Assembly: GCA_016946835.1 (NCBI GenBank)
Contig: JACVTC010000109.1
Location: forward strand, 100,001 to 142,500
Length of the DNA: 42,500 nucleotides
Direction: 5' to 3'
Source: Neocallimastix lanati (nom. inval.)
Lineage: Eukaryota; Neocallimastigomycota; Neocallimastigomycetes; Neocallimastigales; Neocallimastigaceae
The first letter of the stretch is position 1. Each line of letters begins with the position of its first letter. The position numbers were made by a program, and so were the translations under genes. The notes under the pieces are model-generated. The model was not told where the DNA came from and made no database searches. It saw only the letters and a program-made list of their open reading frames with translations. Below are positions 320 through 42,444 of the stretch, piece after piece.

Positions 320-1043
320 AAGATTATTCTAAAATATTATTAATAGTAGTTATAAAAAATTAATAATTATTAAAAAAAAAAAAAAATTTGTTATTTTTAC
401 TTTTTTGAGAATATTAAAATCAAAAAGTATAATAATTCATATACAGTGTTTAAACCGTAAGAAAATTAATTAATAATAAGTTAGGGTGATTCCAATTTAT
501 TATTAATTAAGGTTTTTAATCGATCTCGTGAGTGCGTGAATACGTCCCAAAGTAATAATTATACTCCCCACGGCACTTTCTGTAGTTTATCAACTATCCG
601 AGTGTTGTCAGGGTTTTTGGACAAGATCGAGCACTGGAACAATAATGAACTTATATCACCGAAGGTATAAGGTTTTCTTTTTTAGAATTATTATATTAAT
701 ATAAAATAAAGTCGCGTCAATAATAAATAAATCGAAATATTCAGCAAAATTTTTTTCAGTTTATTAGCAATTAAAATTTCAATTCAGTAATAGTTTAATT
801 TTTCAATTTAGTTATTTCAAAATTTAGTTTAATTAAGATATAAAATTTTTTTTAATCATTCATCCATCCATCAACTTAATAAAAATATACAATTAAAAGA
901 ATATATTAATTCATCAATTTAATAAATAAAACAATTAATAATAATAAAAATAATAAAAATAAATTTATATAAGACATTTATCTCCTCATTCATCCATCAA
1001 TTCATCAATTAAATATTAAAAGCATTAGATTTTTTTTATCAAA
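119..1043 (+). other. Untranslated leader of the Ty3/Gypsy element
   Basis: This is a 0.9-kb stretch without a credible ORF. It contains A tracts near 180-202 and 290-317 and a markedly less AT-rich island at about 520-650. The island may hold packaging or dimerisation structure, but no specific element can be named from sequence alone. Confidence 0.6.
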
Positions 1044-2039
1044 ATGAAAATTTTAGAATTGGAAAGGCTATTACCCAGACTTAACGAAAGCGCAAGGGAT
1101 GTCGATTCATGGATCGATGAATTTTCAAGAATAATGGCACTGGCTGATATCACCAATCCAAGAAGCATTCTTACCTGGGCAATGGAGTGTGTAGAAGGAA
1201 AGTTGAGGGGCACTTTACAAGAACTACATACAATAGATGAGGAAGGTAATGAACATTTTCCATCAATGAGAGAAATAAAAGAAGCAATTGAAAATTCATT
1301 AGAAGTAACTCCACAAGAGAAATGTAAAAGACTACAACGAATGAAAATTCAAAGAGGAGAAAGCATAAAAAACTTTAATTGGAGATATAGGAAAATTTAT
1401 AACAGTCTACCAAAATTGTACCAAACATTTATAACAATAGAAGATTATGCTGATTCGATTATCTACCGTCCTTATGCTAGATCACAAGTAATAACACAAC
1501 GATGTATAGATCTTGAAGATGCTTTTGAAGAAGCAGAGTTAGCTGAAAGAGCTGAAGAAGGAGGAAATCTTAGAAATGAAACCGTGATGATGACAGTATT
1601 TAATTCTCAACCATTCTATTACCGAAGTAACACTCATCCATTTAAGCAATTCAATTCTCCAAGTTATAATTATAATTATAATGGAAGACAATTTTACATT
1701 AAGAAAACTCCTCGAAATTATACAAATTATAATGAAAATAGAGAATTTACAACTAATAATTTTAATACTAAATTCAATTCTAAAAATGAAATTATGCAAA
1801 GTAATAATTTAGAAAATACCACACAAAATATTAAAGATAGTAAAATAAGAAATAACTTGGTAAATAATGAAATCAAACAAGCCAGAAATACATTTAATTC
1901 TGAGAAATCCCATATTATTTGTTACCGTTGTGGACAACAAGGACACATTTATAAACTATGTCCTTATTCCTTTAAAGAATTTGCTAAACTAAGAAATCAA
2001 AATAATACAATAAATTCAAACAATCATTTAAACTTCTAA
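1044..2039 (+). CDS. gag: Gag polyprotein of a Ty3/Gypsy retrotransposon
   Basis: This 331-residue structural protein should assemble the virus-like particle and bind element RNA. A retrotransposon-Gag-like region (about residues 20-170, with the segment WRYRKIYNSLP) is followed by an Asn/Tyr-rich linker and one CCHC zinc knuckle, C293-x2-C296-x4-H301-x4-C306. The first ATG after the leader was taken as start. The frame ends in TAA at 2037, only four bases after a TTTAAAC heptamer placed in the gag frame as T TTA AAC. The pol frame overlaps only the last 34 bases, which fits translation by -1 frameshifting. The frame is intact, so the element may be competent apart from the pol duplication. 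Confidence 0.95.
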   Translation: MKILELERLLPRLNESARDVDSWIDEFSRIMALADITNPRSILTWAMECVEGKLRGTLQELHTIDEEGNEHFPSMREIKEAIENSLEVTPQEKCKRLQRMKIQRGESIKNFNWRYRKIYNSLPKLYQTFITIEDYADSIIYRPYARSQVITQRCIDLEDAFEEAELAERAEEGGNLRNETVMMTVFNSQPFYYRSNTHPFKQFNSPSYNYNYNGRQFYIKKTPRNYTNYNENREFTTNNFNTKFNSKNEIMQSNNLENTTQNIKDSKIRNNLVNNEIKQARNTFNSEKSHIICYRCGQQGHIYKLCPYSFKEFAKLRNQNNTINSNNHLNF

Positions 2040-2059
2040 ACGGGAGAAGGGAAACTCCC
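2027..2059 (+). promoter_or_regulatory. Predicted -1 ribosomal frameshift signal between gag and pol
   Basis: A slippery heptamer TTTAAAC at 2027-2033 sits in the gag frame exactly as X XXY YYZ (T TTA AAC). An 8-base spacer (2034-2041) follows, then a GC-rich hairpin with stem GGGAG (2042-2046) pairing CTCCC (2055-2059) across an 8-base loop. The gag stop lies within the spacer. The pol frame is the -1 frame, opens at 2006 and runs unbroken to 6589. All parts of a classic -1 signal are therefore present. A GC stem in this AT-rich element is unlikely to be chance. Confidence 0.88.
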
Positions 2060-5000
2060 AGTAATCAAACCAATGATGAAATAGTAGCTACTGCAGTTAG
2101 AAGAAAAGGAAAACAAGTTTTTGAAAAACCATATTCAAGAGATAAAAGAAAACAAAATGAAAATAAAGTAAATGATAATACTTCTAATTCTAATAATATC
2201 ATACAAGAAGATAATGAAGATATAGAAATTGAAAACAACGAAATAAATATAATATCTAACACTCCTATAAATGAAACCGAAAGACTTGAGGAGATTGATG
2301 TATCAGTTATTGCGCAACCCTCAATCAACAAAGCTAAACGAAATTCAAAGAAACAAAAAGAAAAAGAAATATTAGAAAGCACTAAGAATCTCGAGGTTAG
2401 TTCTAATAAAGAATCTAGAGTTAAACTTCCAAGTGTAGAATTAGAAGAGAAGAAAGTTAAAACCAACAATCCCAATAAACAAATAACCATTATGGAAGGT
2501 CAATCAAAATATGATATTTGTAAAGACATAAGTACTAGGTTTGCTAATATTACATTACCTCAATTATTGGATGTTAGTCCTAAACTCCGTGCTGATATTG
2601 TAAAGGCCTTAAAATTAAAAACCACAGAAACAATTAAAGAGACTCCTGAAGAAGTTGTATTATCTGCTATACGTAGGGAAGATGTTGCTACAGTTGAATG
2701 TTTAATTAATGGAGTCCAAGGTATTGCATTTTTAGATACAGGCGCAAGCATTAATATTATTACTAGACAATTTTTAAACAAGTTAGGAGATGTAAAACCA
2801 ATTGGATTTGTTAAAAATAATATTGTTCAATTATTATCTAAAGAGAATGTTAATACTGAAATCTACTTGCTAAAAGTTCAACTTGGAGATTTAGCTATTC
2901 ATGATATATTCCGAGTTATAGATAATCACCAAAACCTATTTGATGTTTTAATTAGCTATAAAACACTTAAAGAAAATAATTTATTTATTAATCCTATTAA
3001 TAATAATTTGTGCATAATGAAAGAAAATAACAAATGGATGTGTGTCAAAAATCTTTGCAAAGAAGAGAAAGGAAATGTTATTAGTGATGATGAAGATGCT
3101 GAATCAATAATTATATATGATAAAACAAATTCTGATATTAATAATAATTCCTACCTTTATTGCTTTGTTAATGAAATTGATAATATTAATAATAACTTAA
3201 CAATAACTCAAAATAAAATAGAAGACTCTAAAACAATAACTAAAGAAGTAGATATCATTAATGAAAATGGTGTTTTTGAAAAAGATCAACTCCTGCAAAA
3301 TATACTTAAAGGAATTCCAAAAAAGCTAAGAAATGAAGTAAAAAAGTTATTTGATGAATATAATACTATTCTTGCCACAAAAATTGATGAGTTAAAACCA
3401 ACTAAATTGTTACCTCATAGTATTCAACTTGAGCCTAACGCTAAACCGATTAAACAGAGATGTTATCGACTTTCTAAAGTTCAAGCATTAGCTCTTAAAA
3501 AGGAATTAGAAAAACTTATAAAAAATAAACTAATTGAACCATCACACTCCCCTTGGTCTTCTCCCGTTATTTTAGTGCCTAAAAAAAATAAACAGTGGAG
3601 AATATGTATAGATTTTCGAAAACTAAACAATCTTACTATTAAAGATGCATATTCGTTACCGCTTATAGATGAAATTTTATTTTCTATCGGGAAAAAAGTT
3701 AAAGTTTTTACTACGATTGATTTATTTTCGGGATTTCATCAGATCCCTATGAACAAAGAAGATATTCCTAAAACTAGCTTTGCTACAATGTATGGTAACT
3801 ATCAATTCTTAGTTATGCCCTTTGGTTTATGCAATGCCCCAGGTACTTTTCAAAGGGAAATGAATAGAATATTCTTTCCTCTTATTGGAGTATGCATGTT
3901 TGTTTATATCGATGATCTAGTTATATTTTCACCCTCCTTTGAACAATATATTATAGATATTAAGAAAGTGTTTGATATTATCAAAGAAAATGGATTAAAA
4001 ATTAACTTAGAAAAATGTCATTTTTTTAAAATAAAAGTCGAATTGTTAGGACATACTTTATCAATTAATGGTATTTCCCCTATTCAAGCTAAAGTTCAAG
4101 TCATATTAGAATGGATACCACCAAAAAATGTTACACAATTACAATCTTTCCTTGGTGCAGTGGGTTATTACCGTAAATTTATTCTTAACTTCGCTAATAT
4201 AGCAAAACCATTATTTAAACTTGTTAAAAAAGGTGTAAAGTTTGTCTGGGGTAAAGAACAAGAAGAAAGCTTTAATGAGTTGAAACTAAAATTAGCATCT
4301 GCTCCTATTCTTGTTATGCCTGACTTTGAAAAACAATTTATAATCAGAACGGATGCCTCTTTCGATGGTATTGGAGGTGTTTTACTTCAGAAAGATGAGA
4401 ATGGTATTGAAAAGCCAATTCACTTCGTAAGTCGCTCTTTAAAACCGGCGGAAAAGAATTATTCAATAACTGATCTTGAAGGAACTGCCGCGACTTACTG
4501 CGTTCAAAAATTTAAATCTTATATTTCTGGAAATAAATATGAAACTCTTTTATTCACCGATCATAAACCTTTAGTTGGACTTTTCAAAAATAAAGAAACT
4601 AACAATTCTAGACAAACTCGATGGGTATTACTTCTATCAATGCTAAAAGTTAAAGTCTTATATGAACCTGGAAAGAAAAATGTTATCGCTGATGCACTTT
4701 CTAGATTATCAACAAAAGAAAATACAATATTAACAACTGTTACTGAAGAGATAAATGAAAATAATCCGTATAACTTACTTACAAAATTTAAAGATAAATT
4801 TACAATAATTAATAACGAAGAATATTATAAAGACCATGGAAAACTTAGAAAAGTTATAAAAAATCAAAACGAAAAAATTGATTTAATACTAAAAGCTCAC
4901 AAAGTTGGTCACGAAGGAGTATTTAAAACTTACAATAGACTTAAACGTGACTACTATTGGATCAACATGATACTTGACGTTAAATACATTGTCAGAACTT

Positions 5001-6589
5001 GTGATAGGTGTCAACACTTTAGATCGCAATCTTTTAATAACCAAACAGAAGATATTGCTACTCAACCTGGTTTACCATTTACGAAAGTTGGCTTGGATAT
5101 AGTAGGGAATTATTCAATAACTGATCTTGAAGGAACTGCCGCGACTTACTGCGTTCAAAAATTTAAATCTTATATTTCTGGAAATAAATATGAAACTCTT
5201 TTATTCACCGATCATAAACCTTTAGTTGGACTTTTCAAAAATAAAGAAACTAACAATTCTAGACAAACTCGATGGGTATTACTTCTATCAATGCTAAAAG
5301 TTAAAGTCTTATATGAACCTGGAAAGAAAAATGTTATCGCTGATGCACTTTCTAGATTATCAACAAAAGAAAATACAATATTAACAACTGTTACTGAAGA
5401 GATAAATGAAAATAATCCGTATAACTTACTTACAAAATTTAAAGATAAATTTACAATAATTAATAACGAAGAATATTATAAAGACCATGGAAAACTTAGA
5501 AAAGTTATAAAAAATCAAAACGAAAAAATTGATTTAATACTAAAAGCTCACAAAGTTGGTCACGAAGGAGTATTTAAAACTTACAATAGACTTAAACGTG
5601 ACTACTATTGGATCAACATGATACTTGACGTTAAATACATTGTCAGAACTTGTGATAGGTGTCAACACTTTAGATCGCAATCTTTTAATAACCAAACAGA
5701 AGATATTGCTACTCAACCTGGTTTACCATTTACGAAAGTTGGCTTGGATATAGTAGGCCCACTTCCTACTTCAAGAAAAGGAAATAAATATATAATAGTT
5801 TTAGTAGATTACTTAACAAAGTGGGTTGAAGCAGAACCAACCCAAAATATTGATTCAGATGATGTAATAGAATTTTTATCCAAGATTTTTGCTCGATTCG
5901 GAATACCAGAAATATTAGTAACTGATAACGGTCCACAGTTCTGTTCTGATAAAACAAAAGCATTCTTAGACTTATATGGTGTTTATGTTAACTTCGTTGT
6001 TACTTATCATCCAGAATCTAATGGTCAAGTAGAAAATCGAAACAAAGAAATAGGCAAATACCTTAGATTACTTTGTAATAAAAATACATCAAAATGGGAT
6101 GAAATGCTACCTAGTGCTTTATGGGCCTTGCGTACTTGTAAAAATGAAACAACTAAATTTTCAAGTTTTGAATTGTTATATGGCCGACGTGACCTTCAGC
6201 CGTTTGAATTACAATTAAACTTAGATAAAAAGGAAAATTATGAAAGTGATGATGAATTTTTAATTAGAAGATTTACAAAACATTATAAATGGATCAAGGA
6301 AGCCATAAATAATATTCAAACAGCAAACAAAATCTGGGAAGATAGAAGAAAACAAGTAAAAAGACTTAAAGCTAATTATAAACCAGGAGATCTAGTATTA
6401 ATTAAATATATTAATAGAAGAAAACTTGATCCATACTTCTTAGGTCCTATGAAAATTGTTAAAAAACAATTCAATACTGTAACGTTATGTGATCCATTAA
6501 CAAACGAAATTGCTGAAAGAAATGTCCACTTAAAGAATATTATACCTTATAGACTATGCGAAATTGAGACTTCAAGGGACGAAGTCTGA
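2033..6589 (+). CDS. pol: Pol polyprotein (protease, RT, RNase H, integrase) of a Ty3/Gypsy element, with an internal duplication
   Basis: Made as Gag-Pol by -1 frameshifting; an internal ATG at 2492 is not needed. Residues here are counted from that ATG. A charged linker (2033-2491) leads to an aspartic protease with DTGA at 82-85, then reverse transcriptase with YIDD at 472-475, and RNase H with Asp621, Glu663 and Asp690. The integrase has an HHCC finger (HKVGH and CDRC), catalytic Asp1086, Asp1145 and Glu1181 (35 residues between the last two), and a C-terminal GDLVLIKY...LGPMKIVK chromodomain-side module. This domain order defines Ty3/Gypsy. Odd: 4456-5106 is repeated perfectly as 5107-5757, so half of RNase H, the connection and the HHCC finger occur twice in frame. 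This probably harms the protein unless it is an assembly artefact. Confidence 0.95.
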   Translation, partial: LLNGRRETPSNQTNDEIVATAVRRKGKQVFEKPYSRDKRKQNENKVNDNTSNSNNIIQEDNEDIEIENNEINIISNTPINETERLEEIDVSVIAQPSINKAKRNSKKQKEKEILESTKNLEVSSNKESRVKLPSVELEEKKVKTNNPNKQITIMEGQSKYDICKDISTRFANITLPQLLDVSPKLRADIVKALKLKTTETIKETPEEVVLSAIRREDVATVECLINGVQGIAFLDTGASINIITRQFLNKLGDVKPIGFVKNNIVQLLSKENVNTEIYLLKVQLGDLAIHDIFRVIDNHQNLFDVLISYKTLKENNLFINPINNNLCIMKENNKWMCVKNLCKEEKGNVISDDEDAESIIIYDKTNSDINNNSYLYCFVNEIDNINNNLTITQNKIEDSKTITKEVDIINENGVFEKDQLLQNILKGIPKKLRNEVKKLFDEYNTILATKIDELKPTKLLPHSIQLEPNAKPIKQRCYRLSKVQALALKKELEKLIKNKLIEPSHSPWSSPVILVPKKNKQWRICIDFRKLNNLTIKDAYSLPLIDEILFSIGKKVKVFTTIDLFSGFHQIPMNKEDIPKTSFATMYGNYQFLVMPFGLCNAPGTFQREMNRIFFPLIGVCMFVYIDDLVIFSPSFEQYIIDIKKVFDIIKENGLKINLEKCHFFKIKVELLGHTLSINGISPIQAKVQVILEWIPPKNVTQLQSFLGAVGYYRKFILNFANIAKPLFKLVKKGVKFVWGKEQEESFNELKLKLASAPILVMPDFEKQFIIRTDASFDGIGGVLLQKDENGIEKPIHFVSRSLKPAEKNYSITDLEGTAATYCVQKFKSYISGNKYETLLFTDHKPLVGLFKNKETNNSRQTRWVLLLSMLKVKVLYEPGKKNVIADALSRLSTKENTILTTVTEEINENNPYNLLTKFKDKFTIINNEEYYKDHGKLRKVIKNQNEKIDLILKAHKVGHEGVFKTYNRLKRDYYWINMILDVKYIVRTCDRCQHFRSQSFNNQTEDIATQPGLPFTKVGLDIVGNYSITDLEGTAATYCVQKFKSYISGNKYETLLFTDHKPLVGLFKNKETNNSRQTRWVLLLSMLKVKVLYEPGKKNVIADALSRLSTKENTILTTVTEEINENNPYNLLTKFKDKFTIINNEEYYKDHGKLRKVIKNQNEKIDLILKAHKVGHEGVFKTYNRLKRDYYWINMILDVKYIVRTCDRCQHFRSQSFNNQTEDIATQPGLPFTKVGLDIVGPLPTSRKGNKYIIVLVDYLTKWVEAEPTQNIDSDDVIEFLSKIFARFGIPEILVTDNGPQFCSDKTKAFLDLYGVYVNFVVTYHPESNGQVENRNKEIGKYLRLLCNKNTSKWDEMLPSALWALRTCKNETTKFSSFELLYGRRDLQPFELQLNLDKKENYESDDEFLIRRFTKHYKWIKEAINNIQTANKIWEDRRKQVKRLKANYKPGDLVLIKYINRRKLDPYFLGPMKIVKKQFNTVTLCDPLTNEIAERNVHLKNIIPYRLCEIETSRDEV
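4456..5757 (+). repeat. Perfect 651-bp tandem duplication inside pol
   Basis: 4456-5106 and 5107-5757 are identical on visual comparison. The unit length of 651 is 217 codons, so the frame is kept. The junction reads TAGTAGG/GAATTATTC, with no homology beyond one base at the breakpoints. It repeats the second half of RNase H through the integrase zinc finger. Confidence 0.95.
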
Positions 6590-16427: not shown

Positions 16428-19400
16428 ACTTTGAGAAAACTTAATTAAATTAATAATAATAATAAAATTACATGATTTTAATATAAAAAAAATAAAATAA
16501 AATATATGAAATAAAATATTATATATTATAAATTATAAAATTATAAAAGTATGTTAGAAGCAATAGCCTCTAACTTTTCCCATTATTGGGAGTAATAATT
16601 TCAGTATTAGTGTTATCTAACGAATCTGTATCTATTCTTTCACCGGCAGGAGAAAATCCATACCTTATCATTACGACGTCGACGCTCTTGGAAACGGTAG
16701 ATTCAACTGAATACCATTTCATCATCAATCTAAAAGATCGACAAATAAAAGGTATTACGTTTGTTAGGAACTCCGCAATCCCCACAAAATATGGAACAGT
16801 TGACGAAGTTGAACTTTGTTTAAAAATATTGTCAACTAATTGTCTTTATTCCCCATCATTAACTTTAATTTTTGAATATATTGAACGCCCACCAAGAAGT
16901 GCACTCAATATAATAAATATTATTATCATAATCCTTTTCTGTATCTAAAGAAACATCCATGGATTTTTGTTCAATTATCATTGCAAACTTCAAAAAGAGA
17001 TCATCTAGAAAAGGTAAAGATTTATTTCTGTAATTTTCCAATTTTTTGCAGGCAAAGATCCAGTGAGAAAAGCTAGGTACACTAACACCACAACAAGGGC
17101 AACATTTAGAGCAATCTTCTGAGACTATTTTTCTTTTAATGGAAATGCTAATGTCAAATTTAAAACCACACCTAATTCGAGAAATCCAAAAGAATCCCAA
17201 CTGATACTTAGGATATCGAAATGTTAAGTTTTTGATTTCTGAAATAAATCCAAAAAAAATCATTCTCCTTGTAAATAACTGCTTTTTTAGCCTTTGAGGG
17301 TTTGAAAACCTCTCTTTCCCAATAAAACTTTTTTATTTCACTTGTTTTCTTACCATTTAATTTCTTATCCAAAGTCCTTGATTCTTTAGTCCATGAGTAA
17401 TGTGACATAGTAGGAATATTATTAGTGAGATGATTAATAATACATGAAGAATTTTTCCATTTTCTAAAGCATCGTAATTGAGATATAGCACAGACAGCTG
17501 AAAGAGGAGGTATTCTCAATTCACGAGTAATATCATAGAGACTAACAGAAGAATTGCGAGATTTAAATCCATAACTCCAATAAAGTCCTCTATTAATAAT
17601 TTTTTGAGCTTTAGAACATCTGCTCTTATTTGAACCAAAGAGAGGAGCATAATATATAACAAGACTAAGAATAAACGAAATTAAAACATATTTCTTCAAT
17701 GGGAGAGGAACAGATTTATTAATAAGAAATCGAAAGTACGAATTTAACTTGACATTTAAATTACTGCTTAATTTGGATTGTATAGGTTTCAGTGATAAAG
17801 ATTCATCAAAAGGTATACCAAGATAGGTATAGTTGTCAGTTTTAGGTAATTTGTTACTACCAATAAAGAAAGATGGATCTTCATAGTTTATCGGTTTAAC
17901 AAAGTTAATCGGTTTTACAACAAGAGTAGCACACTTATTAATTCCAAAAGTCATTTCATTTTTAATAGCCCATTCATGAACTTTATTCAAAATTTTCTTA
18001 AAAGCTTGTTTAGATGGAGCAACTAAAACAATATCATCCGCAAAAAGTCCACCACAACAATATTGAGAATCTAAATATACACCATACTTATCACAATTAT
18101 CCAGTATATCATTAATGAACAAATTGAATAAAATAGGAGATAGAGGGCATCCTTGTCTAACACCACGATTAATCGAAAATTCTTCTGAGAGATTACCATT
18201 AAAAAAAGCACGAGCTTTAGAAGATAGATGAAGATTCTTTAAAAACAGATGACATTTATCTCTAATTCCTAAGTTATATAATTTGGTCAAAATATTAAAG
18301 ATAGGTACAGAATCATAGGCTTTTTTAAGATCGAGAAAAGCAAAATAAGTAAAATTTCCTTGAAATTTTCTTCTTTGACATATCTCTCTAATTGAAATAT
18401 ATAAACTTATGCATTCTTCTTTATTTCTAAATCCAAATTGTTCAGGTCTAACAAATTTATGTTCAAGGGCATTTTAGCAATTCTATTAGTAACAATCTTT
18501 GAAATAATTTTTAAGCCAACATTAATAAGAGAAATACTACGATAATTATTACAATCCGAAAGATCTCCTTTTTTTGGAATTGATATTATAGAAGCCGAAT
18601 TCCACTCTTCAGGGAAGTCACCATCCCAGATTTCGTTAAATAATGAAAGTAAACATTTAGCACACTTAGAGTAGTGATCATCTGAAGAATCATCTTGATT
18701 ATCGGATAAATCAGATTTACTAAAGAAGGCTTTAAAAAATTCAATCGGAATACCATCGGGTCCAGGAGCTTTATTATTTTTCATTTCAAGCACAGTGTTT
18801 TGAATTTCTTCCATAGTAATAGAATCATTAATATCCCAAGTAAGATTATTATTAGGATTAGTTCCAAATATACTTACCCAGTATTCATTATCCAAACTGT
18901 GTTGAGTAATATCAGAAGCTAGTTCACTGTAATGTTCAGCAAATCGATTTAATTGATCCGAATGAGAGAATAAAAAGTTACCCTGCTTGTCCTTTAAAAC
19001 ACTTGACGAAATAGAATTAGAGTCATAGGGTGAGATAGCTTCTTTAATTTTAACCAAGCACTTCTAGCATTTTTATTTCGAAAATCATTACATGCAGATT
19101 CTATTGACTGATGAAATTGTTTTGATTTAATAGAAAACTTAATTGACCTGACTTTACCACATATATTTTTATATTCACGAAGCAAATTTAAAAATTCAAC
19201 AAGGTTTTCAAGATTAGAACCTAAAGAAAAATTTTTGATTTCATTAAATGCAACATGCTTTTCATGAGAAAGTTTCTTGATATAATAAGGGCAGTGGAAA
19301 GCTGAGCCTTTAAGATCACAAGGAACTCTAGCATGAACTTTATCACCAACTTTATTAGCTGTTTCTATAAATTTATTGACCATTTCATTAGAACTTAATT

Positions 19401-20045
19401 CTTTATTATCATCAAATTCATTAAGAAGAATTGAGAAGTAGTTACTTGAGAATATTTCATTATGCTTTTCATTACACATGCGTTGGGACCACTTGAATCT
19501 TCTAGAAGGAGTAGGAGCACGAAAACCTTCTGAGTCATCTTTCTTACAGGAAAGGATAAGAGGGAAGTGGTCAGATATATCATTGAATGTACTACAAACA
19601 GATACCTTATTAATGTATTCATTTTACGATTATATAAAACATGATCAATACAAGACGATCTACCATCCCGAGCCCATGTGAAATCGAGACCTGATAAGTT
19701 TTTAGTGAACCACTGATGAGATGATTTATTAAGTAAACTTACTAATTGGGATTTAGACATATTAAAGTCACCTACAAGAATAGAAGGTGTATTAGTATGT
19801 TTCTTTATCCAATTAGTAATTTCTGAAAAGGCATTCTTTCTTTCTTCCTTATGAGTGACCGTAGGAACATAAATATTACCAATAGTGCATTTAATTCCCC
19901 AAAAAGAAGTAATGTTGACAGAAATGATATACTTATATTCAAAAGGATCAGGAGAAAATGAACAAGAACGATGTACACTTATACTAAGACCTCTCATACC
20001 GGGTATATTTGGATCAGCTTTTCGTAAAATTGTATTATAGTGATT
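16427..20045 (-). mobile_element. 5'-truncated non-LTR retrotransposon (LINE)
   Basis: The minus-strand order is endonuclease, linker, reverse transcriptase, cysteine finger, C-terminal tail, 3' UTR and poly(A). The 5' end falls inside the endonuclease domain (starting near ILRKADPNIPG) and abuts a 12-bp CTTGAACTTGTA tandem repeat. The start of the endonuclease and any ORF1 are missing, so the copy is 5'-truncated as most LINE insertions are. The APE-type endonuclease and C-terminal finger exclude restriction-enzyme-like clades; the exact clade (Tad1- or L1-like) is not resolved. Confidence 0.88.
16570..20038 (-). pseudogene. LINE ORF2 (endonuclease-reverse transcriptase), broken by frameshifts
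   Basis: The coding similarity runs through several frames. Endonuclease with GDFNM and FTWARDGRSSCIDHVL lies in 19395-19997. The linker and RT blocks with NNKAPGPDGIP and NYRSISLINVGLKI lie in 18407-19479. The RT core with GVRQGCPLSPILFNLFINDIL-type sequence and the catalytic FADD lies in 17208-18475. A CPCC...HWIFAC finger and tail lie in 16865-17263, and the last residues in 16570-16850, after an in-frame stop. I see at least four breaks, near 19440, 19060, 18475 and 17235; the last lies in a run of eight A. The fragments therefore encode no working enzyme unless some breaks are homopolymer sequencing errors. Confidence 0.88.
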
Positions 20046-20092
20046 GAACTTGAACTTGAACTTGTACTTGAACTTGTACTTGAACTTGTACT
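20046..20092. repeat. 12-bp tandem repeat at the LINE 5' junction
   Basis: CTTGAACTTGTA-type units, (CTTGAACTTGAA)(CTTGTACTTGAA)n, form about four copies between two LINE-derived segments. Expansion at a truncated LINE junction is plausible. Confidence 0.8.
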
Positions 20093-20094
20093 TG

Positions 20095-20205
20095 AAAGTA
20101 ATAATTCTTCACAGTTGCGAAAAACAAATTGTTCAGGTCTAATGAAATTGTGAGTAAGTGCCTAAGTAGATATTCTATCTGTTATAATTAAATTAGATGA
20201 TAATC
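20095..20205 (-). pseudogene. Fragment of a second LINE reverse transcriptase
   Basis: On the minus strand this reads IITDRIST-stop-ALTHNFIRPEQFVFRN. It matches the segment of the main LINE around 18420-18500 (IVTNRIAK...KFVRPEQFGFRN). It is only about 35 codons with an in-frame stop, so it is a relic of another LINE copy. Confidence 0.65.
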
Positions 20206-20965: not shown

Positions 20966-22845
20966 TTAATCAGCTAAGGCAGCAATAATACCAGCACCAA
21001 TACCAGAACCATCCTTACCTAAAGCTAAGGTAATGTTTTCAGCAAAGAGACCTAAAAGTTCGTGAAGAGCATCTTGGATTCTGTTACCGAAGTGTGGGTA
21101 GTGTTCAAAGACAGAACCATCAATAGCAACAGTACAACCATCAAGCTTCTTCATTTGAGTAATTAAACCGGCAATACAGCAAGCAGAAAGACGAGCAGCA
21201 CGAATACCAACGAGTTCAACAATACGACGAACAATACGACGGTCACGAGCAGTAGTGTTTGGAATACCTAAGAGATCTTGAAGAACAATCTTAGTATCAG
21301 ATAAATCGGCAGAGTAATCTCTTTCAATTCTAGACATGTATTGAGTTTCGAAACTGTTTGGCTTCTTTAATTCTTCACTTAAGTAACCGTTGAAGAGGTA
21401 CTTCTTTTGAATAAGATCAAGGAAGACATTTCTACAGATTTCACCAAGGTACATACCAGAAATCATCTTTTCGTAAATGTGCTTACCTGGGTTTTGAGAT
21501 TCGGCATCTAACTTGTTATCATATTGAGTTAATGGAAGCATTGCCTTTTCTTCATCGTAAGCTCCCCATTCACAGTTAATGATCATTTCACCAGAAGCTG
21601 GGATAGCACCCTTCCACTTCTTAACGTTTTCAATCTTTTCAACGTAGGCAGCATTTGTACCGGTACCAAGAATAACACCAACAAGAGTTTGTGGATCGTT
21701 GTAGGCGTGGGAGATAAGAGTACCAACAGTATCGTTAACAAGAGCAGTAACCTTAACATTTAAGCCCTTACGGATGAAAGCTTGGTTAAGCATTTCAACA
21801 ACATCCTTACCAACAGTGTTGGTACAGTTGAAACCCTTTGACCAAACTAAAAGATTACCAGCATTAATGGCAGTTTGTTCGACTGGGAATGAGAAAGTGA
21901 AACCGAGTTCTAAGTTTTGTTGGGTTGGAACAACACCACTGTCCTTAAGGAAGGATTCAACAGAATTAGCAAGGAAATCGAAAAGAACTTCACCTTCAGC
22001 ATTCTTACATTCTTCTGGAATGGTGAACTTCTTTTGTCTAAGACGAACAGAACATTGACCTTCGAGGTAAACTTCACAAACACGGAAGTTGGTACCTATT
22101 TTTCATTTTAGTGTTTTTAATACAAAAAGAAATGAATAAATTATTATTTAGAAGTTCTTTTTTTCCAAATATAATTTATTTCCATATTAAAAAATTATTC
22201 TTTTTTCATTCTCTTATTCTTTATTATTAAATATTATGTATTTTTTTTATTATTTATAATTTCTCCCTTTTTTTTTATATTTCATATTTTATTTTATCTG
22301 TTTATATAAAAATTTTCCATTTTATTGTTTATAATATATTTAGTTTATTATTATTCTATTTTTCTTTGATTATACATCATTATTTTAAATTCTTTCTAAA
22401 TATATTATAAAAATATTTTATAAATTTTACAAAATACACATATTTTAAATACATTTCAACACTCTTAAAAATATTTATTCTAATTATTAATATTCTAATA
22501 TATTTATTAAATTTCTAAATTTAATTATTTAAATCTTTAAATTTTCAAAACTTAATATTTACCTCCTAAATCAAGAGCAAGGTAAGAACCTTGTTCTTTA
22601 CCAGTTGGACGGTTAGTAACAAAAGATGGAAGCATAGCAACAGTAGCACCATCGTGATCTAAACCCTTTTGCATTTCAGAAACGAAGTGCTTGACAATTT
22701 CCTTTAACTTAGTTGGACCAACAACGAAAAGTTCTTCCATATCAGCAAGAATTTCATCTTCGCTAACAATGGTGTTGGTCTTAGCTTGACGACTGTTCTT
22801 GAACATGCTAAGGAAGTTAGCAACTAATTCGTTAGTGTCAGACAT
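20966..22845 (-). CDS. HXK: Hexokinase, two exons
   Basis: Phosphorylates glucose and other hexoses with ATP in the cytosol, the entry step of glycolysis. Exon 1 is 22563-22845 and exon 2 is 20966-22095. The intron 22096-22562 (GTAAAT...AATAG) splits a Gly codon; the spliced frame is 470 residues, close to the usual ~480 of fungal hexokinases. Visible signatures are the phosphate loop LDLGGTNFR (91-99), the hexokinase signature GFTFSFPVEQTAINAGNLL continuing to WSKGF, the catalytic Asp217 in ALVNDTVGTL, LGTGTNAAY, NCEWGAYD, and a C-terminal GKDGSGIGAGIIAAL nucleotide loop. It has no signal peptide. Third positions are strikingly C-rich for a highly expressed gene in an AT desert. The start is the ATG of MSDTNELV. 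I see no frameshift or missing key residue. Confidence 0.98.
22096..22562 (-). other. Hexokinase intron (467 bp)
   Basis: The donor is GTAAATATT and the acceptor AAAAATAG. It is phase 1 and falls exactly in the LDLGG|TNFR phosphate-binding motif. It is almost pure A/T and no element is seen within it. Confidence 0.95.
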
Positions 22846-30456: not shown

Positions 30457-35883
<5,427 letters not shown>

Positions 35884-40533: not shown

Positions 40534-42130
40534 ATGTTACCAATTTCAAAGGAAGTTCATACATTTACTTGGGTTTACGGTATTTAAGAAATAAATTTTA
40601 ATTTTTATTTTTTTTTTCCTTATTTTATATATAAAAATTATTTTACTGATGAATGATACATTTATTAATGTATTCTAATATTAATTCTAATATTATTAAA
40701 CTTTTTTTTTTTTTTTTTTTTTTTTTTGATTTCATTTTCAATAATTTGTAAATACATATATATATATATATATTTAATAATAAATAATAAAGGTCAACCG
40801 GAAAATGTTATAATCACAGGAAATTTTGATAATTGGGAGAAGAAAATTCAAATGGATAAAGATCCTTTAACCAATATATTTATTTCTAGAATATTGCTTC
40901 CAATTAATCAAAAAATTATTTATAAATTTGTAGTAGATGGAATATGGCAGAATGATCCAATGCTTCCTGAAGAAATTGATATGCAAGGAAATAAAAATAA
41001 TGTTCTTATTATAAAACCAAATAATACTAATAATTCATTTAAACAAATAAATGACTTTAATAAGAAAGATACCGATAATATTCAATTAAAGATGATACCC
41101 AATACTATTAATACTAAAAAGTTGAATTCTAAATTTCAGGCTAAACAGGAATTAAAACATACTAAATATGATTTTATTGAAACTAGAATTGAAAATAATA
41201 TTAATAATAATTTATTTAAAGGTACTTTTTACTTTTTATTTTATTTATTATTATTTTTTAATGAATTTATATATCTATATATAATATATAAATATACTAT
41301 TATATATATTAAAATAATAATATATAATATTCTTTAAAAAGTATATATATATATAATATATATATAACTCTTAAAAATAAAAAATATCGATATATAATTT
41401 TATATTTAATTTCAGTTAATTAATTAATATAAATATTATTAATAAAATTACAAAATATTTATCTAATTTAAATAATATTATACCTAGTATTATTAATGGG
41501 TGATAAAGGTACCGGGAAAACATGTATATTATCTCGTTTTGCATATAATGAATTTTCTATAAAATCAAAGTCAAAATATGGTATTGATTTTGGAACAAAA
41601 GTAGTTCAATTAAATAATAATAAAACAGCTATTAACACACATATATGGGATACCTCAAGATATTCAAGGTATTAAGAATAAGAAAAAAAAATAGTTGATA
41701 ATGATACAAAATAATACAAAATCATACATAAAGAAATATATATATATATATATATGTAACTTTATTATTATTATTACTTATTTTTTTTTATTTTTATTTT
41801 TATTTTTATTTATTATATTTTACTATTTTATATAAGACATATACCATTATTTTATTTAAAAGGTACAATATGTGTTATAGTAGTTTATGATATTACGAAT
41901 GAAGATAGTTTTGATAATTCAAAATTTTGGATTCAAGATATTAAAAATAAATATGAACGTATACGTAGTAAAGAAGACACTATATCTATTATGTTAATAG
42001 GGAATAAAGTAGATCAAGATCATGAAAGAGAAGTTAGTTATGAAACAGGGAAAAAATTAGCTGGTAATTTTATTGAATATAATAATAATAATAATAATAA
42101 ATATTATTATATATTGATTAGTTACATATA

Positions 42131-42162
<32 letters not shown>

Positions 42163-42345
42163 AAATAAATGTATATATAGAGGATGAAAAAATATTATTT
42201 GAAGAAATTTCAGCATTAGGTGCAATAAATGTTGAAAATGCATTTCATAATGCGTTAGAAGGTAATTACCATTTATAAACATAAACATTAGAAGTTTGAT
42301 TGTCTCTATATATCCATATTAATTAGTTATATATATATATTTATG

Positions 42346-42376
<31 letters not shown>

Positions 42377-42444
42377 TTATATTATATATATATATATATA
42401 TAGATTTATATCAAAAAGTATTAGCTAAGAAACAAAAAAATTAA
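40534..42444 (+). CDS. CBM48 (AMPK-beta-type glycogen-binding) domain fused to a degenerate Rab-like GTPase, six exons
   Basis: Hand-built exons: 40534-40579, 40793-41221, 41488-41668, 41837-42063, 42181-42261 and 42404-42444. All introns are GT-AG, phases close and the sum is 334 residues. Residues 7-89 form a CBM48/AMPK1-CBM fold with VIITGNFDNW, YKFVVDGIW and GNKNNVLII. Trp30, Lys60, Trp67 and Asn84/85 match the carbohydrate-contact positions known from AMPK beta. An Asn-rich linker (90-154) leads into a Rab-like domain: P-loop GDKGTGKT (163-170), GIDF (190-193), NKVD (275-278) and ISAL (304-307). The Rab beta-1 strand LFK|VLL is split by intron 2, so the two halves belong to one protein. 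The switch I Thr is Lys188, and WDTAGQE is replaced by WDTSR, losing the DxxG Gly and the catalytic Gln. The C-terminus KKQKN lacks a prenylated Cys. Predicted role: GTP-binding but poorly hydrolysing protein held on glycogen-like glucan (inference). Confidence 0.86.
40580..40792 (+). other. Intron 1 of the CBM48-Rab gene
   Basis: Donor GTATTTAAG, acceptor TAATAAAG. Exon 1 supplies the start and the TFTWVYG strand of the CBM; starting inside this intron would replace it with a nonsense poly-Tyr/Ile leader. It contains a T run (40702-40727) and an (AT)n run. Confidence 0.82.
41222..41487 (+). other. Intron 2 of the CBM48-Rab gene, at the domain junction
   Basis: Donor GTACTTTTTAC, acceptor TATACCTAG. 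It joins ...NNNLFK to VLLMGDKGTGKT, restoring the canonical Rab beta-1 strand. This is the key junction for the fusion call. No separate promoter or start for the GTPase part is evident, apart from an in-frame ATG at 41496 that would remove beta-1. Confidence 0.82.

Follow-up and report, generated by a model that had tools for sequence, protein, structure and literature searches.

The gene at positions 40534-42444 (+) of the window, by which we mean the whole stretch of 42,500 nucleotides analyzed here, encodes a protein in which an AMPK-beta-type carbohydrate-binding module (CBM48) is joined to a Rab-like domain. The organism, Neocallimastix lanati, is an anaerobic gut fungus. That the CBM48 and the Rab domain form a single architecture is near certain, and the GTPase half, probably descended from Rab11, has lost residues of both switches as well as the C-terminal cysteines. 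We suggest, with about even confidence, that the product may be a glucan-anchored, nucleotide-binding pseudo-Rab scaffold that would bring a partner to glycogen.

Gene structure and occurrence of the fusion

Six exons separated by GT-AG introns give an open frame of 1005 nt, corresponding to 334 amino acids and the stop codon. The gene spans 1911 bases, of which 906 are intronic; introns 1 to 5 measure 213, 266, 168, 117 and 142 nt, and their G+C content is 0.06-0.12 vs 0.15-0.33 for the exons. The spliced product is identical to the deposited N. lanati protein P0001 (100% over residues 1-155 and 140-334). Exon 1 (40534..40579, like the other exons and the introns of this gene on the + strand) contains the start and residues 1-15 (MLPISKEVHTFTWVY), where the CBM48 begins, and is followed by intron 1 (40580..40792, phase 1, GTATTT...AAAG). 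Exon 2 (40793..41221) encodes the remainder of the CBM48 to residue 93, a linker, and the NNLFK that opens the Rab core, so that the CBM48 and the first Rab strand are encoded by one shared exon. Intron 2 (41222..41487, phase 1) falls within Rab strand beta-1 (K158|V159), at the position and phase of an intron in the Rab11 gene of N. lanati. Exon 3 (41488..41668) carries the P-loop GDKGTGKT, an altered switch I (SKYGIDF) and the beginning of an altered switch II (WDTSRYS); intron 3 (41669..41836, phase 2) interrupts switch II and, in the alignment, precedes the phase-2 intron of Rab11 by 7 columns. Exon 4 (41837..42063) completes switch II (RHIPLFYLKG) and continues with VVYDIT and GNKVDQ; intron 4 (42064..42180, phase 1) again has the position and phase of a Rab11 intron. 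Exon 5 (42181..42261) contains EISALGAINVENAF, which is the G5 region, intron 5 (42262..42403, phase 1) also coincides with a Rab11 intron in position and phase, and exon 6 (42404..42444) encodes only a short tail, DLYQKVLAKKQKN, and the stop, with neither a C-terminal Cys nor the hypervariable tail of Rab11.

In Pfam searches the spliced protein matches AMPK1_CBM (PF16561) over residues 10-93 with E = 4.5e-15, at a score of 56.1 bits vs a curated cut-off of 26.8, and the Ras family profile (PF00071) over residues 158-324 with E = 5e-39, in keeping with Rab descent; the PF16561 match is shared by 8/8 orthologues at E <= 0.001. An earlier, sequence-only reading of this DNA had proposed six GT-AG exons in one 334-residue frame, joining an AMPK-beta-type CBM to a Rab-like domain, and had suggested a search against CBM48/AMPK1_CBM and Ras profiles as a check: the frame is borne out by the splice reconstruction and the identity to P0001, and both domains by their profiles. 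It had also taken the splitting of strand beta-1 (LFK|V) as an argument against two genes; the join is indeed real, and it sits at a Rab11 intron of the same genome.

Protein database searches returned eight proteins with both domains (P0001 and P0003-P0009), from N. lanati, Orpinomyces (under the source's label Orpsp1), N. 'constans' and Piromyces finnis, plus the clusters P0004-P0007; the search of other gut fungi that the sequence-only reading had called for was successful in the second, third and fourth of these sources. A different contig contributes P0002, which is exon 2 read as an unspliced frame. The longest contigs for P0004-P0007 have 1286, 1697, 1175 and 1044 bases, with unbroken frames of 327-347 codons; since they are shorter than the intron-bearing gene of N. 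lanati and their frame is unbroken, they look most simply like spliced transcripts. The N-terminus of exon 1 type (MLPxxKEVHTFTWVYGQP) is found also in P0003-P0007; the models of P0008 (N. 'constans') and P0009 (Piromyces finnis) start at M36, and therefore do not include W30, and are taken as truncated gene models. With the GTPase region as the only query, 76 proteins were recovered, namely the 8 fusions (81-100% identity) and 68 other small GTPases (at most 46%). PF16561 is listed for none of these 68, and there is no CBM-less orthologue among the 76: orthologues that are always two separate genes, which had been named as an outcome fatal to the fusion, are contradicted by 8/8 proteins in which this GTPase carries the CBM.

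No CBM-GTPase protein outside the family was present among the 76 GTPase-region or the 15 CBM-region matches, and none was confirmed in viral contigs searched with two peptide patterns (170 stretches). Neither Anaeromyces nor Caecomyces, both sequenced gut fungi, is named among the matches of these protein searches, which require shared 5-residue words and similar length, such that distant cases could escape. In the N. lanati genome, for which 199,045,447 bases in 762 contigs were searched (200 Mbp for the PacBio genome as given in PMC8561657), at least 20 CBM48 and at least 101 Ras matches are listed, and just one of these CBM48 matches has a Ras match closer than 100 kb, namely the fusion itself; the next-nearest pair among the matches listed, which are exon pieces, is 103 kb apart. 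In databases the fusion proteins carry generic names. Among the papers listed by keyword in the open-licence PMC literature, none is seen to describe a CBM joined to a small GTPase, in agreement with the earlier remark that no described family with this architecture was known.

The CBM48 half

The four sugar contacts noticed in the sequence-only reading are present: W30, K60, W67 and N84 align with W100, K126, W133 and N150 of AMPK beta-1, which stack on or form hydrogen bonds with glucose units of beta-cyclodextrin (PMC9788615). W30 is found in 6/6 fusions that reach that position, and K60, W67 and N84 in 8/8. The two aligned Trp residues are needed for the binding of starch by PTST (PMC4339375), and also for the effect of beta-cyclodextrin on AMPK (PMC9788615). 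That reading had not mentioned that the remaining four contacts given in PMC9788615 are changed in 8/8 fusions (Q124 to I/V, Q145 to M, L146 to Q, T148 to N). Binding of a glucan by the CBM48 of the fusion is likely as judged from its residues, but as 4/8 of the AMPK-beta contacts differ the affinity may be low or the specificity changed.

With AMPK beta and Sip/Gal83 the fusion shares the AMPK1_CBM domain and its W, K, W and N contacts; it differs from them in having its CBM at the extreme N-terminus, followed by a GTPase domain, and in lacking (by Pfam) the kinase-binding C-terminal domain. An identification of the protein as an AMPK beta subunit was rejected on the last ground, as no C-terminal alpha/gamma-binding domain is detected at E <= 0.001. 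The closest non-fusion CBM48 sequences found, at 44-46% identity, belong to fungal proteins with an N-terminal CBM, P0010 of Piromyces and those at C134 and C599 of N. lanati, which we take to be of the Mdg1/Crp1 kind. Unlike the fusion, P0010 continues as a coiled coil, and the GTPase domain is missing in P0010, P0080 and P0083. P0010 and the C134 and C599 proteins constitute a second gut-fungal CBM48 family: in P0010 the N-terminal CBM48 is followed by a long coiled coil of repeated EEQERIRLAEEERLKKEQ and, by eye, a hydrophobic C-terminal end, resembling a tail-anchored glycogen tether. We also sought the donor of the CBM through the site of intron 1. Besides the fusion, none of the 8 CBM48 loci readable there (C134, C599 near 88 kb, C312, C543, C25, C113, C739 near 190 kb and C699), out of 18 loci comprising 20 matches, has an intron at this site, and no donor was identified among them.

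Origin of the GTPase half

On contig C113 N. lanati carries an ordinary Rab11, which ends in GGCC and whose DTAGQE motif is intact; in the tree it groups with a protein named Rab11B (support 94). Its introns are at V14 (phase 1), A79 (phase 2), A144 (phase 1) and E171 (phase 1), plus one after Met1; those in the Rab half of the fusion are at V159 (phase 1), R219 (phase 2), E295 (phase 1) and D322 (phase 1). In three of the four pairs both the phase and the place in the alignment agree (columns 55, 198 and 226), and the phase-2 pair is displaced by 7 columns (119 in the fusion vs 126 in Rab11). The chance of at least three coincidences is about 2e-6, assuming uniform placement and bearing in mind that Rab11 was picked after being seen as the best match. 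The intron at the KKxA|E site is missing, by eye, from the 11 other distinct kinds of Ras-family gene readable there, and the K|V intron is clearly present in no other of 13 P-loop contexts, with Ras-like L058/L059 ambiguous.

In the tree the fusion proteins form one clade (support 99) on a long stem (1.43), not beside Rab11 and with no secure sister group; the tree was calculated by a quick method with a long-branch warning that names the fusion, and with 5 of 79 candidate rows omitted (P0065, P0067, P0074, P0077, P0078). Because the tree does not put the fusion beside Rab11, the Rab11 origin rests mainly on the introns, together with the best matches to Rab11/Rab8; by these sequence features the GTPase half goes back to a duplication of Rab11. 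The fusion and Rab11 (Ypt31-32) have in common the fold, the G1, G4 and G5 motifs, and three of the four intron positions and phases; 67 of 181 aligned residues are identical (37%). The fusion differs in the absence of the switch I Thr, Gly60 and Gln61, in the deletion of two residues of switch II, in the loss of the hypervariable tail and its Cys-Cys, and in the gain of the CBM48.

Loss of switch and anchor residues

Textbook GTPases sense and hydrolyse the gamma phosphate through three residues, the switch I Thr, Gly60 and Gln61. In an alignment of the 8 fusions with the 68 other GTPases from the same search, the switch I Thr, present in 66/68 of the others, is replaced by Lys (7) or Arg (1); Gly60 of DxxG, present in 68/68, is Arg in 8/8 fusions; and Gln61, present in 62/68, is Tyr in 8/8, a change that by itself is not unusual as 6/68 ordinary relatives also lack this Gln. 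The P-loop Lys, Ser/Thr17, the N, K and D of NKxD, and SA are retained in 8/8 fusions. A Cys in the last 6 residues is found in 0/8 fusions vs 63/68 others, although P0003 stops early and the end of P0009 is odd, leaving six of the eight fusion C-termini firm.

The changed stretch of switch II straddles intron 3: Rab11 has DTAGQERFRAITSA|YYRG where the fusion has DTSRYSR|HIPLFYLKG (the bar follows the codon that the intron interrupts). If donor and acceptor sites both moved, the catalytic segment could have been swapped out in one step. The mean pairwise identity between fusions is 94% in switch I, 89% in switch II, 85% in the GTPase domain, 94% in the N-terminus and CBM, and 53% in the linker. 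Since the altered switches are conserved at levels well above that of the linker, they are probably in use, and not decaying; the pattern across the N-terminus and CBM and across the GTPase domain would be that of purifying selection.

The sequence-only reading had envisaged a small G protein targeted to a glucan surface instead of a membrane. This proposal is supported in part: the CBM48 is there (with the binding itself presumed from its residues) and the absence of a prenylation Cys, on which it had relied, is confirmed; the part that does not stand is the ordinary switch, whose loss it had overlooked. Although Rab-derived, the domain is not expected to switch with GTP or to sit on membranes, and an ordinary Rab placed on glycogen was rejected on account of the lost switch and anchor residues. 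A better name would be Rab11-derived pseudoGTPase, or atypical GTPase, as by sequence the nucleotide-binding motifs are kept and the catalytic ones lost. To our knowledge, pseudoGTPases of the Rnd, RhoH and p190RhoGAP type contain no CBM. Their domains likewise have a small-GTPase fold without normal cycling (PMC13236570, PMC5593906); they differ from the fusion in being Rho-type or embedded in a GAP, and the Rnd proteins alter the G12 position, while the fusion alters switch I and DxxGQ.

Predicted structure

AlphaFold2 models were obtained with 8 similar rows (mean pLDDT 44.6) and with 43 rows, comprising the 8 fusions and 35 of the 68 other GTPases (mean pLDDT 59.9). In the 43-row model the GTPase half has the Rab fold, with means of 64-97 for ten-residue blocks, and residues 1-153 have pLDDT <50. 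As the pLDDT of the CBM is <50 in both models, its fold is assigned by sequence alone, and the model says nothing on the placement of the CBM against the GTPase. The best Foldseek matches include Rab8a-GDP, RabA1a, Rab2A and Rab11, with target TM values of 0.75-0.90 among the matches listed (best 50).

Other features of the window

The interval 1029-6589 (+) holds a gag-like frame that includes a zinc-knuckle motif and, after it, a reverse transcriptase/integrase frame of 1527 codons, motifs that presumably belong to an LTR retrotransposon; a stretch beginning NYSITDLEGTAATYC is present twice in the latter frame, as an in-frame internal duplication. Overlapping frames, broken into several, at 16865-20108 (-) carry motifs that we assume to be those of a LINE-like endonuclease and reverse transcriptase. 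A hexokinase gene is found at 20966-22102 (-) (Hexokinase_2, 1.2e-87; Hexokinase_1, 1.8e-50), and an ankyrin-repeat protein frame of 575 codons at 33721-35448 (-) (Ank_2, 1.5e-42). The frame at 30457-31746 (-), of 429 codons, is rich in Pro, Gln and Ser and highly repetitive, and the opposite strand also has a long repetitive frame. Composition probably explains why the 429-codon frame matches a profile of phage-spike repeats (Gp5_trimer_C, 1.8e-12). At 32077-32704, some 560-600 bases are a nearly pure AAT/ATT triplet repeat with several frames open.

Interpretation

The scaffold proposed at the outset would have arisen when Rab11 was duplicated and one copy received a piece of a CBM48 gene at its front, upstream of the beta-1 intron. 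The introns and the orthologues found support placing this event in an ancestor that Neocallimastix, Orpinomyces and Piromyces, at the least, have in common. By its conserved residues the CBM48 would hold the protein on glycogen, or on another alpha-glucan, via a platform of two Trp together with the Lys and the Asn; the Rab11-derived domain, having kept G1, G4 and G5, would still bind guanine nucleotide. With the switch I Thr lost along with Gly60 and Gln61, it would be expected neither to switch nor to hydrolyse in the normal way, and without a prenyl Cys it would not be a membrane Rab; most likely it would instead offer a fixed docking surface that recruits a partner protein to the glycogen, much as CBM scaffolds of the PTST or laforin type recruit theirs to starch or glycogen. 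In laforin, which is likewise a glucan scaffold made by CBM fusion, the partner part is a phosphatase. Scaffolds of this type share the principle of a CBM fused to another part, by which a partner or an activity is brought to the glucan (for PTST, see PMC4339375); PTST differs from the fusion in that its partner part is a coiled coil, not a small GTPase. Cells of N. lanati have been analyzed for glycogen-bound glucose (PMC8561657), which suggests that they hold glycogen.

Other readings have to be weighed against this one. The notion that a gene model has merged two neighbouring genes or a read-through transcript is barely conceivable: it could draw on the short N-termini of the deposited P0008 and P0009 models and on the fact that the transcript nature of the P0004-P0007 contigs is deduced from size and frame, but it is already largely contradicted by the single exon that holds both the CBM and strand beta-1, and by the same join in 8/8 proteins found, which the source labels assign to three genera except for four clusters whose contigs do not reach the length of the N. 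lanati gene. A mis-join, or a pair of neighbouring genes, was rejected on the strength of the shared exon and the orthologues together with the Rab11 intron at the join. Some claim, even if we hold it unlikely, can be made for an atypical GTPase that is still regulated on glycogen, in which the nucleotide state or GTP level alters the binding of a partner, another residue takes over from the Gln and Thr, and the energy state is reported: the retention of the G1 Lys, NKxD and SA in every fusion and the conservation of the altered switches, as expected of an active surface, are in its favor, and the joint loss of all three catalytic and sensing residues speaks against it.

The Rab11 origin and the modelled Rab8/Rab11-like fold would also suit a decoy that keeps Rab11 regulators or effectors on glycogen and off membranes. 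This we regard as very unlikely, as both effector-reading switches are changed in 8/8 fusions, which should weaken the binding of classical Rab11 effectors, and other motifs, presumably of the RabF2/F3 type, are gone by eye. A CBM48 that serves in protein interaction or stability without binding glucan, within a cytosolic pseudo-Rab unrelated to glycogen, is quite unlikely: no fusion retains the equivalent of the ring-piercing Leu146, or those of Thr148, Gln145 and Gln124, in line with such a role, but the platform Trp pair, the Lys and the Asn are kept in every fusion that reaches these positions, and the aligned Trp residues are those on which the starch binding of PTST and the beta-cyclodextrin effect on AMPK depend (PMC4339375, PMC9788615).

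If the scaffold reading is taken one step further, one may tentatively imagine, with a good deal less than even confidence, that the glycogen of gut fungi has a Rab-derived identity mark: a copy of Rab11 with a carbohydrate anchor in place of the lipid one and a frozen switch, giving a polysaccharide particle in place of a membrane a small-GTPase address that is read by a dedicated partner. Small GTPases confer membrane identity through lipid anchoring and switching. The origin of the present protein is unusually readable, in the introns common to Rab11, in the one exon that bears the join, and in the loss of switch II residues at an exon boundary with a displaced intron. If the proposal is true, it would show how a membrane address protein can be turned to new use on a carbohydrate particle, and this conserved Rab11 descendant would offer a defined handle on the handling of glycogen in anaerobic gut fungi.
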